A DNA stretch of 64,000 nucleotides, taken from assembly GCA_035283685.1 (NCBI GenBank), contig DATETJ010000009.1:62001-126000 (forward strand), written 5' to 3'. Shown here in pieces: positions 7,451 to 12,463 of the stretch; position 1 is the first letter of the stretch, and each line of letters opens with the position of its first letter. Both the position numbers and the translations under genes were made by a program. This DNA comes from Candidatus Bathyarchaeia archaeon (GTDB taxonomy: Archaea; Thermoproteota; Bathyarchaeia; Bathyarchaeales; Bathyarchaeaceae). The notes beneath the pieces were generated by a model. It saw only the letters and a program-made list of their open reading frames with translations. It searched no databases and was not told the origin of the DNA.

Positions 7451-8500
7451 CTAGGTTATCAGTTTTACATACTCTGAACCTTTCCCTTCAGGCGAGCCTA
7501 CGAGTAACCGGTGGTATTTCCTCTTGGTTTTCCTATCTGCCACCTCCTCCAGTTTTCCTTTGACAAGCAATGTTTCTCCCACTTCTGCTATGTCTCCGTA
7601 CAGCCCTTCATAGGACACGATTTCCTCAATGTCATTCACCTCAGGTCCCTTGATCACCTTTGCTTCACGAATCTGATAGACTGCTGGCAGGAACATGGAG
7701 TCGAGGTTTTGATGGACTACGCAACCGACAATTGCGCTTCCTAATGGTTCATACACTTTGTCAGCGTATTGCTCGGCGACTTCTTCTTCTGGTTTGATGG
7801 GGTGCACGGAGAACCGGGTTCCTTCGAAGACGCCTATGTTCCATTTTCGTTTGTAGAGCTGCAAAGCTTCGTCGAAAGTTAGCGGATGGGCTTGCGTCTT
7901 GCTTTTGCACCACGATGTAAGATCGGCGCCTTCAAACCTCTTTATCTCTGAGCTTTTCAGTGAGTAGGCGTCAACTATTGCTCTCTTAACGGACAAGCTG
8001 TTCTTGTAGCCATAGACTGTTACGTCCAAGTCTGAAATGTTCAACCGGTGAATGCTGATGAGGATTGAGCCGGTGACGCCGAAGAGATCTGGCTGGACGC
8101 CGCTTTTTTCGGCAAGTAGCAGTATGAACTTTCTTAGTTTTTTCTGCAGCTGGTCTGATCGCTGCGCTCCCATTATCTGGACCAGTTTTTCCTCAGGTTT
8201 GTAATGCTTTGCCATAGATTCCAGAGGCACTGCTGTCATGAGAACATTGTTGAACGGGGAGTAGAAAAGATATTGTGGGTGGTCTCTTTCCAAGATTCTG
8301 AAGGTCTCGAGCAAGCTTGGGATCGTATAGTCTTTCAACATTCGTTTAAATCTCCAGTTTCCCCTCCCCCACTTGCCCAGTCTCGACGGAGCGTATTTGA
8401 GATATGATATGACTCTGTTGGGCGGATGTTGCGAACCGACAACACAAAAGAAAAAGCCTTCCTTCGTTCTTAGAAAATCTCTGTCCCTAAACCCACGCAT
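7451..8500 (-). CDS. Archaeal nucleotidyltransferase-fold protein, paralogue 1
   Basis: A 349-residue protein with a pol-beta-type nucleotidyltransferase core: GVTGS at 141-145 followed by SDLDVTVYG from 156, giving the GS and DxD metal ligands. An N-terminal domain holds GSQHPPNRVISYLKY (22-36) and HPQYLF, and a C-terminal beta domain starts near IVSYEG and ends in EYVKLI. It is homologous along its length to the proteins at 10349 and 11417. Stand-alone archaeal enzymes of this kind are described only as predicted nucleotidyltransferases; the substrate (nucleic acid end, antibiotic or small molecule) is unknown. It is the last gene before a noncoding patch. Confidence 0.8.
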   Translation of the reverse strand: MRGFRDRDFLRTKEGFFFCVVGSQHPPNRVISYLKYAPSRLGKWGRGNWRFKRMLKDYTIPSLLETFRILERDHPQYLFYSPFNNVLMTAVPLESMAKHYKPEEKLVQIMGAQRSDQLQKKLRKFILLLAEKSGVQPDLFGVTGSILISIHRLNISDLDVTVYGYKNSLSVKRAIVDAYSLKSSEIKRFEGADLTSWCKSKTQAHPLTFDEALQLYKRKWNIGVFEGTRFSVHPIKPEEEVAEQYADKVYEPLGSAIVGCVVHQNLDSMFLPAVYQIREAKVIKGPEVNDIEEIVSYEGLYGDIAEVGETLLVKGKLEEVADRKTKRKYHRLLVGSPEGKGSEYVKLIT

Positions 8501-8670
8501 AAGCCTTGACCCTTAGATTTCCATCTCTTGTATAATACTCTACTTAAATAAAGTGCGTTTGCAAGGTCAGAAGAAACGTGGACCTGGGCAGACGGATATG
8601 CCCATGGTTGAAATGGAAAGAAGCATCGCGAGAAAGTGGGCATCATCGGTACGACTTGCCAAATGGGCTC

Positions 8671-10348: not shown

Positions 10349-11443
10349 TTGGCTTTCCTCAAGCTCAGAGACCGCGACGCCATCGTCACTCAGGAAGGGA
10401 TAATCATGCGAGTGTATGGTTATTCGCATCCCTCAAACGCTTACGTATGCGATCCCGAATACGCTCCCGGCCGCATCTACGAATCAAGGGATTCCAGAGC
10501 TTACAGAGAAAAAGGCAGGCAAGTCTATTACAAGTTTTACACTGACGAAGGGCTGCGATTCGTTCGCCGTAATTATCCTCAACATGTTATCTGGGTTAAA
10601 CCGTTGAGACGGAAGCTCATCGGGGTTCACCACGAAAACGTTTGGAGGACAAGGCAGCCCCACGAGGCTCTTCAGTCTTTGTTTCAGAAGAGACCCAAAG
10701 ACTCACTTCTGAAAGCTCTGCATTCACTTCTCGATCGCGTGCTACGGAGATCAAGCTTGCCCATGTCTGACTTTGGCGTTTTCGGTTCGCTCCTTCATGA
10801 CTTCTACCACCCTGATTTCTCAGACTTAGATTTCATAATCTATGGCGACAAAGAGTTAGACCGCCTGAGAGAAACGCTAGACATCCTATATCGCGAAGCT
10901 GACTCGCCTCTACGTAACGAGTTCGTCGACATGAAATCCGTGCATGACAAGCAATGGAAGTTCCTGAACTACAGTCCAAAGGAGTATTTGTGGCACCAGA
11001 GAAGAAAGCGCATTTACGGCATCTTCAGTCCGCCCCAAAGGGGGAGAGCGATCAAAGCAGAGTTTGAACCAGTCAAACGCTGGAACGAAATTCACAACGA
11101 GTACGACCACATCACTAGCATCTCGCAAAAGGGCTGGATCAAATTACACGCCCACATCACCAATGCCCCAGACGCGGGGTTCATGCCATCAATCTATCAG
11201 ATTGAACCAGTCATGACTCTGAAAGGTGCTAGACCTGACAACTTGCAGCGTGTTGTCTCATTTGTGGAGGAGTTTCGACTTCAGGTTGAGCAAGACGAGC
11301 TGGTTGTTGTTGAGGGAAATTTGGAGCAAGTCTCTACACCTGAAGAGAGTTTTCAACAGGTGACTTTGACACACGGTCCAAGATACTACGAACAAACACT
11401 GAAGGTTAGACAATCGTTATTGGGCAAGAATCAAAAAGTCTGA
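10349..11443 (+). CDS. Archaeal nucleotidyltransferase-fold protein, paralogue 2
   Basis: The 364-residue protein carries GVFGS (143-147) and SDLDFIIYG (from 158), the same nucleotidyltransferase core as its two neighbours, plus GYSHPSNAY at the N-terminus and a C-terminal beta domain beginning VVSFVEEF. It is more basic than paralogue 1, with an insertion near residues 45-62. The start is TTG, with AGAGG upstream; an ATG four bases earlier is out of frame. Its last 27 bases overlap the end of paralogue 3 on the other strand. Substrate unknown. Confidence 0.8.
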   Translation: MAFLKLRDRDAIVTQEGIIMRVYGYSHPSNAYVCDPEYAPGRIYESRDSRAYREKGRQVYYKFYTDEGLRFVRRNYPQHVIWVKPLRRKLIGVHHENVWRTRQPHEALQSLFQKRPKDSLLKALHSLLDRVLRRSSLPMSDFGVFGSLLHDFYHPDFSDLDFIIYGDKELDRLRETLDILYREADSPLRNEFVDMKSVHDKQWKFLNYSPKEYLWHQRRKRIYGIFSPPQRGRAIKAEFEPVKRWNEIHNEYDHITSISQKGWIKLHAHITNAPDAGFMPSIYQIEPVMTLKGARPDNLQRVVSFVEEFRLQVEQDELVVVEGNLEQVSTPEESFQQVTLTHGPRYYEQTLKVRQSLLGKNQKV

Positions 11444-12463
11444 CTGCCTATTCCCAACAATGAGGCGAAAGCACTCCTCCTGATCTCCCTCCCTAACGCT
11501 TTCAACCGTGCCACAAGCAATGATTCTTTCACGCTTTCTGGCTTGCTCACAAAATCTCCCTCTGAAAGAGACAATCTCTCGGAGAACTCGAGGCGTCGTG
11601 CCATTGAGCCATTGCAAGCCATTTATCTGATATGTGCACGGTGTAAAAATCATATTGGAGTCATTGGTTACAGTCGCGCTGATCATCGCCTCTCCCATTG
11701 GTTCATACGTGATTGAACCATATGTCTCGGTTGTCTCGTCCCAATCTTTGACGCACCGAATGAAGTAGTCTCTTTGGTGAAACTTGCCCTGCAGAGCTTT
11801 GCGGGACTCGGTTCGAACAAAGTCTTCGAACTTCACAACAGTATCTTTCGAACGAAAATCGAATAATGGTTTCAAATCTTGCATGGTGTAAGGTCTTACG
11901 TTACCCGCCTCTTCTCGAACCAGCCGCGTCAAAGCAGCGTAAACTCTCTTGCAGTTAAGTGAGCCGTAAACCACAAGGTCCATGTCAGACTTTGAGGTGT
12001 TCAGGCCTGCAAGAAGCGAACCTGAAACGCCCAAAGCATTCCAATTGACTCCTGCTTCTCTGTGCAGTAATTCTGCCAACTCAACTGTTTGCTGTCCAAG
12101 TTTGTCAAGACTTTTTCTGTGGCGTAGTTGACTCAGAAATTCAGTTGGTTGATAGTGTTTCTTCACAATCCCAGTTGGGACTTCGCAGAGCCATTGGTGG
12201 AATACGGAGTCGAAGACCAAGTATTGTGGGAACTTTTCGCGTAGCAAGGTGTATCGTTCTTGCAGAGGGTAGATTTTCTTGTAGCGTGTACTGCCTCTTC
12301 GTCTTTCTCCCTTCAGGTCGGGCGTGAAGCGTATGAAGGCGATTATCTTGTCAGGCGGATGGACTAGCCCCTTTACGTCGAATATGTTGCCATCGAAGGT
12401 TTCGATCAGGTCGCCTTCACGTGCCTTCATGATATTCCCAAAGTCTTTAGAGATAACAGTCAT
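11417..12463 (-). CDS. Archaeal nucleotidyltransferase-fold protein, paralogue 3
   Basis: A 348-residue homologue of the proteins at 7451 and 10349: GLVHPPDKIIAFIRF (32-46), HYQPTEFL, GVSGS (145-149), SDMDLVVYG (from 159) and a C-terminal beta domain starting IVSFRG. GS and DxD residues are intact, so catalysis is possible. It is convergent with paralogue 2, sharing 27 bases at their 3' ends, and divergent from the luciferase-like gene at 12504 with only 40 bases between start codons. Confidence 0.8.
   Translation of the reverse strand: MTVISKDFGNIMKAREGDLIETFDGNIFDVKGLVHPPDKIIAFIRFTPDLKGERRRGSTRYKKIYPLQERYTLLREKFPQYLVFDSVFHQWLCEVPTGIVKKHYQPTEFLSQLRHRKSLDKLGQQTVELAELLHREAGVNWNALGVSGSLLAGLNTSKSDMDLVVYGSLNCKRVYAALTRLVREEAGNVRPYTMQDLKPLFDFRSKDTVVKFEDFVRTESRKALQGKFHQRDYFIRCVKDWDETTETYGSITYEPMGEAMISATVTNDSNMIFTPCTYQINGLQWLNGTTPRVLREIVSFRGRFCEQARKRERIIACGTVESVREGDQEECFRLIVGNRQSDFLILAQ

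Follow-up and report, generated by a model that had tools for sequence, protein, structure and literature searches.

What do three diverged nucleotidyltransferase (NTase) genes do within 5 kb of one archaeal genome, and with which partner do their products act? The question is raised by a 64,000-nucleotide stretch from a Candidatus Bathyarchaeia archaeon (assembly GCA_035283685.1, contig DATETJ010000009.1, positions 62,001 to 126,000 of the forward strand), and "the window" denotes this whole stretch throughout. An earlier model-made reading of the letters (the sequence-only reading) had picked out the three genes, here called A, B and C. We find their family to be paired in genomes with a CitG-family protein, and we favour, with some reserve, the view that the two work together in building the phosphoribosyl-phosphodiester side chain of tetrahydromethanopterin (H4MPT)-type coenzymes, the hydroxyglutarate detail apart.

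7451-8500, minus strand: NTase paralogue A, 349 aa, Ser at the position of the third catalytic carboxylate
10349-11443, plus strand: NTase paralogue B, 364 aa, Glu at that position
11417-12463, minus strand: NTase paralogue C, 348 aa, Phe at that position

A family of pol-beta-type nucleotidyltransferases

Open reading frames were confirmed at all three places, with the 3' ends of B and C overlapping by 27 bases. The proteins can be aligned end to end over 375 columns, B being 24% and C 28% identical to A, and have in common the GS, S-D-x-D and HP motifs as well as a C-terminal domain, which bears out the paralogy and the motifs that had been read from the letters. A profile of A, B and C returned exactly three matching places in the whole 2.28-Mb genome (E ≤ 1e-170); the three are the sole family members in this bathyarchaeal genome, whose closest named relatives are Bathyarchaeota MAGs. 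As the family has clades of its own in other phyla, chance resemblance among them is not at issue.

The Pfam model NTP_transf_2 (PF01909, cut-off 21 bits) matched B with 25.8 bits, the only window copy to exceed the cut-off; C scored 17.2 bits, below it, and A gave no match to this model. Across the family, weak PF01909 matches were found in 27 of 37 members at E ≤ 0.01 (best 1.9e-6). An NCBIfam scan of A, B and C returned no family at its cut-off, and a PDB sequence search with the three-protein profile and a palm profile yielded no credible relative. The RlaP family (PF10127) was discarded as a candidate, none being found in the archaeon's own genome.

AlphaFold2 modelled A with a predicted local distance difference test score (pLDDT) of 96.3 and the first 254 residues of B with 93.4. 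The C-terminal beta domain of the sequence-only reading is indeed common to all three copies and can be specified further: the C-terminal 100 residues form an OB fold (structure comparison, best Z 8.9, root-mean-square deviation (rmsd) 2.9 over 79 residues). Because Foldseek with the whole model of A returned mostly OB-fold matches, the N-terminal and palm part of B was modelled alone; a Foldseek search with this model gave no PDB match at E ≤ 0.001. Structure comparison placed residues 116-246 of the B model on the palms of pol lambda, mu and beta (Z 6.6-7.1, about 100 residues, rmsd about 3), and the palm also resembles that of CCA-adding enzymes. Z values below 8 are modest taken alone, but the motif positions agree, and we take the palm fold to be present. 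The family architecture is therefore given as an N-terminal domain, a pol-beta-type palm and a C-terminal OB fold, and A, B and C belong to a so far unnamed family of pol-beta-type nucleotidyltransferases.

The history of the copies was followed in a careful tree of 85 rows and a quick tree of 111 rows; the search for related loci kept the best 80 of 136. Nine family fragments spanning fewer than 270 profile positions were left out beforehand, and the careful tree was built without the long branches L049, L051 and L110, the near-copy L148, the bathyarchaeal L133-L141 and rows of 23 other loci. In it, clades B, C, D and E are each single with support of at least 100/98 (at least 100/99 for B, C and D), while A, the copies of probable Sulfolobales and one further row make up one clade (100/98); E, the methanogen clade, groups with B (98/91). 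The quick tree agrees on the clades. These trees point to four old paralogue clades, A to D, plus the methanogen clade E, with each of the three window copies in a conserved clade. D is a fourth paralogue in many Bathyarchaeia and is missing from this genome; adjacent A and C pairs recur in Bathyarchaeota, Asgard archaea and Desulfobacteraceae, and methanogens and probable Sulfolobales carry one copy only. The family was found in 112 of 120 sampled Methanobacteriota genomes with one match each, except for two partial matches on one contig of G150.

As judged from these comparisons, the family is old, and its copies are neither strain-specific nor generally decaying: they are conserved across families and phyla. 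A toxin-antitoxin or defence module, MntA-like or CBASS-like, was weighed as another reason for having several NTase copies. An MntA antitoxin model does match 4 of 37 members weakly (best E 5.5e-5), but PADLOC gave nothing better than E 0.005 on the window copies, and with conservation in Methanobacteriota as a single-copy gene as a rule and a metabolic neighbourhood, such a module is scarcely credible.

Within the active site, G144, S145, D157 and D159 are invariant in 147 of 147 homologues, a count from which new proteins of up to 270 aa were left out. The earlier statement that all three copies keep their catalytic residues holds for this GS and Asp pair and fails for the third carboxylate position, where B has Glu, A has Ser and C has Phe. 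The alignment end offsets (residue 245 of the B model corresponding to pol beta 263, pol lambda 497 and pol mu 425) place B 238 at pol beta 256, pol lambda 490 and pol mu 418 if the end is gapless; we take these to be the third catalytic Asp of each polymerase. The same position, 231 in A numbering, is Glu in 20 of 20 clade B members, Asp in all 11 of clade E and Ser in all 28 of clade A, with Phe, Tyr or Thr in the 32 of clade C and Val or Met in the 20 of clade D. Position 233 is likewise clade-specific, and both are nearly fixed inside clades and different between them, which, along with the clade support, supports the earlier suggestion of old duplications and specialised copies. Neither loss of the Asp pair nor strain-specific decay of the copies, which the sequence-only reading had named as grounds for refuting it, was seen across the family.

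The full pol-beta triad thus appears to be kept in clades B and E and not in A, C and D, in which the nearly invariant E240 might substitute for the third carboxylate. Likeness to the pol-beta superfamily (pol beta, lambda and mu; CCA-adding enzymes) extends to the palm fold, GS and DxD, and to the clade B carboxylate aligned with the third catalytic Asp; the family differs in the loss of that carboxylate in three clades and in having no nucleic-acid context here.

A bathyarchaeal B-type copy (L140:9261-10346, plus strand) is intact but for one TAG within its frame, which may be a nonsense mutation or may be translated as an amino acid. A split B copy in L099 appears to be the same gene, since the two contigs agree in length. 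Long open reading frames in L033 and L035 that resemble fusions are runs of N read as X.

Pairing with a CitG-family protein

The most widely common neighbour of the NTase is a CitG-family protein, and the window encodes one.

16096-17091, plus strand: CitG-like protein of the ATP:dephospho-CoA triphosphoribosyl transferase family, the proposed partner, 331 aa (PF01874, 252.9 bits)

It is 23% identical to E. coli CitG (E 8e-12), and PDB entry 3h9p is a relative. Of the 35 records outside Methanobacteriaceae, the window included, 13 have a CitG gene close to the NTase. Of 299 Thermoproteota genomes of at least 90% completeness, 150 carry both genes, 10 the NTase alone, 4 CitG alone and 135 neither (Fisher 8e-67, uncorrected for relatedness). 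CitG is thus found in 150 of 160 genomes with the NTase as compared to 4 of 139 without it, a strong genomic partnership of two enzymes that may act together. By family, the NTase occurs in 38 Thermoproteota families and together with CitG in 35.

Closer relatives give the same picture. Of 61 bathyarchaeal relatives, 48 have the NTase, and 44 of these have CitG as well, against 2 of the 13 others (Fisher 2e-7, uncorrected for relatedness); for the 38 that are at least 90% complete, the counts are 30 of 32 and 0 of 6. Where both are present (n = 44), CitG lies within 5 kb of the NTase in 30 genomes, farther away on the same contig in 7 and on another contig in 7. Joint absence stands beside joint presence inside three families at this completeness (f1, G018; f6, G031; f9, G034, G046, G052 and G058), a pattern not explained by relatedness alone. 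In the probable Sulfolobales family f29, DUF1464, NTase and CitG genes overlap or abut in one operon in four of four genomes, followed by a small metallophosphoesterase. The pairing of CitG and NTase is shown by these counts.

DUF1464 (PF07318) itself is a recurrent neighbour of the NTase in probable Sulfolobales (L147-L150), Asgard archaea and a bacterium (L039:4537-5619, L041:4589-5695 and L109:8962-9942), which makes it a further candidate for the same pathway.

The partnership bears on what the enzymes might act upon. RNA ends or modified nucleotides, the substrates suggested by the sequence-only reading, would suit a palm that resembles CCA-adding enzymes and pol beta and an OB fold that resembles SSB and HIN domains, many of them nucleic-acid-binding. 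OB folds also bind small ligands, though, and the NTase tracks CitG almost one to one, sits in pterin gene clusters (below) and is missing together with CitG from near-complete genomes in three families, which would not be expected of a housekeeping enzyme acting on RNA. As to tRNA nucleotidyltransferases, the resemblance is limited to the palm, and a family unmatched in 139 of the 299 Thermoproteota is not universal. CitG, DUF1464 and, in several lineages, one-carbon (C1) and pterin gene neighbours point instead to coenzyme biosynthesis, and we regard an RNA-end or modified-nucleotide transferase with an RNA-binding OB fold as highly improbable.

A probable place in the H4MPT-type pterin pathway and a proposed reaction

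Outside Methanobacteriaceae, NTase neighbours include Mch, Fwd subunits, Ftr, DmrX, RFAP synthase, TIGR00284, MptA, MptN-like proteins and DUF1464. At least one of DmrX, RFAP synthase and TIGR00284 (dihydropteroate-synthase-like) lies near the NTase in 10 of the 35 records, among them all six with bacterial titles (L046, L047, L055, L068, L109 and L111). In bacteria and Asgard archaea, the NTase clusters with known H4MPT biosynthesis genes. Common clusters and, with the exceptions given below, genome co-occurrence are what it shares with RFAP synthase, TIGR00284, DmrX, MptA and MptN; a difference is that RFAP synthase is mostly unrecognisable in Bathyarchaeia.

Of the 19 NTase genomes searched, 16 have Mch. 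Among 146 Desulfobacterales genomes, the NTase occurs in 2, and Mch in these 2 and no others; since both had come to light by way of the NTase, what carries information is the 0 of 144 among the remainder. RFAP synthase exceeded its cut-off in 14 of the 61 bathyarchaeal relatives, all 14 NTase-positive. In control genomes, both CitG and RFAP synthase were matched in M. jannaschii, H. volcanii, S. acidocaldarius and M. acetivorans, CitG was also matched in E. coli, and Mch had no match in S. acidocaldarius. Sulfolobus solfataricus uses sulfopterin, a modified folate, according to PMC3697235 and PMC9931769. With CitG and RFAP synthase in S. acidocaldarius without Mch, and sulfopterin in Sulfolobus, the CitG-NTase pair therefore follows pterin coenzyme biosynthesis more than it follows H4MPT-using enzymes. 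The H4MPT-type pterin pathway is likely to be its site of action.

In both Desulfobacteraceae H4MPT clusters, a myo-inositol-1-phosphate-synthase-family protein is encoded directly upstream of the C-A pair (L046:7786-8907, scanned copy; L047:7755-8861). It might act on the ribose-to-ribitol step. Mch is present in 52 of 61 bathyarchaeal genomes (own and relatives) and RFAP synthase over its cut-off in only 14; the enzyme may have diverged, another route may be in use, or the coenzyme may be taken up.

Some neighbourhoods could be taken to indicate another C1-associated coenzyme, with CitG and NTase building the methanofuran side chain, F420, molybdopterin dinucleotide or the nickel-pincer nucleotide. 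MobB, Fwd subunits and MfnB (4HFCP synthase) occur near some family members, and CofE (F420 gamma-glutamyl ligase) is encoded in the window at 27188-28000. Nickel-pincer genes stand beside bacterial NTases: LarB, LarC1 and LarC2 in L047 (13809-18326), and in L055 (9956-11140) a LarE-like PP-loop stretch that follows the NTase in the same reading frame and runs to the end of the contig. Yet lar genes were seen in these two bacterial loci only, and the DUF1464-NTase-CitG operon of probable Sulfolobales has no methanofuran gene among the neighbours shown. We know of no CitG chemistry in the methanofuran, F420, molybdopterin dinucleotide or nickel-pincer pathways, which also counts against such a product. 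We hold it to be quite unlikely.

For the H4MPT-type side chain, known chemistry offers a template. CitG transfers an alpha-linked triphosphoribosyl group from ATP onto dephospho-CoA, and MdcG, a nucleotidyltransferase, attaches triphosphoribosyl-dephospho-CoA to acyl carrier protein, setting pyrophosphate free. In methanopterin, the ribitol arm bears an alpha-ribofuranosyl 5-phosphate that forms an ester with 2-hydroxyglutarate. Copying the two-step logic of MdcB/CitG and MdcG, a hydroxyl of the pterin's ribitol arm would displace adenine from ATP on the CitG-like enzyme, giving an alpha-linked 5-triphosphoribosyl group; the NTase would then transfer the phosphoribosyl end to an acceptor hydroxyl, releasing pyrophosphate and forming the phosphodiester. 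In methanopterin, the acceptor would be (S)-2-hydroxyglutarate. Drawn by analogy, this exact reaction is put forward tentatively and could well be wrong.

Both systems would pair a CitG-family enzyme with a GS/DxD nucleotidyltransferase, and in both a phosphoribosyl unit is predicted to pass from a triphosphate donor to a hydroxyl group while pyrophosphate leaves. They differ in that pterin and C1 genes, not an acyl-carrier enzyme complex, are the neighbours here, and in that the present family has its own N-terminal domain and OB fold, unlike MdcG. A prosthetic group of the CitG type on an acyl-carrier-like protein, known from citrate lyase and malonate decarboxylase, would be in keeping with the CitG family membership and the weak MdcG resemblance. 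Against it, no citrate lyase or malonate decarboxylase subunit and no acyl carrier was found among the annotated conserved neighbours, where the survey stopped short of a genome-wide search; and E. coli CitX, the citrate lyase partner, is without the GS...DxD motif and was rejected as a homologue. The chance of this being the product is very small.

Several observations weigh against a joint role of CitG and NTase in H4MPT-type side chains. In Methanobacteriaceae, all 44 loci are without a CitG gene close to the NTase, a count of neighbourhoods that does not cover whole Methanobacteriota genomes, and 10 of 14 CitG neighbourhoods taken phylum-wide, all but the four of f29, are without an NTase within about 9 kb. 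Three of the 19 NTase genomes are without Mch, and in Bathyarchaeia the NTase does not track Mch: 42 of 48 NTase carriers have it, as do 10 of the 13 non-carriers. RFAP synthase has no match in this genome, and most bathyarchaeal NTase carriers are without a recognisable form of this first committed H4MPT enzyme. The lar genes next to the NTase in two bacterial loci belong here as well. MdcG models match few of the 37 members, and weakly (PRK01293 3, best E 0.0045; TIGR03135 1, E 0.024; PF10620 1, E 0.0016), matches that fit the proposed mechanism while their weakness speaks against it. White's 1996 work on methanopterin biosynthesis reportedly has phosphoribosyl pyrophosphate as the ribosyl donor, which would weigh against the CitG half. 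Finally, three or four copies are unexplained where one suffices in methanogens and probable Sulfolobales.

Searches for earlier links returned none. No model searched assigns the NTase family to the H4MPT pathway, and no paper was found doing so; titles and abstract openings, with subscription journals mostly uncovered and the evidence accordingly weak, gave no link of the family or of CitG to methanopterin.

On the copy number, one could speculate that CitG and NTase form an ancient module of two enzymes by which archaeal C1 carriers receive phosphodiester side chains, older than the sulfopterin/methanopterin split, and that the four bathyarchaeal paralogues make a pterin coenzyme, as yet undescribed, that contains two or more phosphodiester units, or act as heteromers with the full triad in B-type subunits only. 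We give this extension a modest chance at best.

If the proposed side-chain role is true, the two proteins would be candidate enzymes for late steps in making the side chain of methanopterin and its relatives, coenzymes needed for both methanogenesis and the archaeal Wood-Ljungdahl pathway. It would also account for the CitG homologues in archaea, and the bathyarchaeal coenzyme could be unlike methanopterin. Since methanogens have the gene in one copy, the idea can be tested directly. Methylorubrum makes dephospho-H4MPT, which is without the phosphate and hydroxyglutarate, according to PMC8141765. As such a producer, it would be expected to be without the NTase, and producers of methanopterin or sarcinapterin would be expected to have it.

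Other genes in the window

Around the three NTase genes and the CitG-like gene, the window encodes the following.

8671-10185, minus strand: permease and ATPase of a Zn/Mn-type ABC transporter, located between A and B and taken to be incidental
12504-13490, plus strand: Mer-like F420-dependent luciferase-family protein (PRK02271, 135 bits, cut-off 276)
13472-14401, plus strand: second Mer-like F420-dependent luciferase-family protein (PRK02271, 115 bits, cut-off 276)
14818-15288, minus strand: uncharacterised 156-aa protein without a Pfam or NCBIfam match, beside the cluster in 5 named loci
15334-16023, minus strand: membrane protein like the S component of energy-coupling factor (ECF) transporters (PF07155, 24.7 bits, just below the cut-off of 26.7)
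21756-22664, plus strand: MptN-like ATP-grasp ligase of the H4MPT:alpha-L-glutamate ligase family (NF040720, 263.4 bits, cut-off 350)
30391-31902: large protein with a partial match to cbb3-oxidase subunit I

The metal ABC transporter noted earlier between the copies is present, but is not a neighbour common to relatives: its permease (8671-9480) has no homologue in 79 named loci (BLAST, E 1e-8). As the permease is not conserved, the transporter was rejected as a functional partner. The two Mer-like proteins belong to the methylene-H4MPT reductase family and score under the equivalog cut-off. The ECF S-component-like protein is conserved next to CitG, and relatives of the MptN-like ligase occur in L045, L046 and L111. 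In several Bathyarchaeota, an asparagine-synthase-like PP-loop protein is encoded near the NTases (L034:2343-3395, L036:8737-9798, L037:8737-9792 and L043:5148-6116); in L036 and L037, it lies between D and A.

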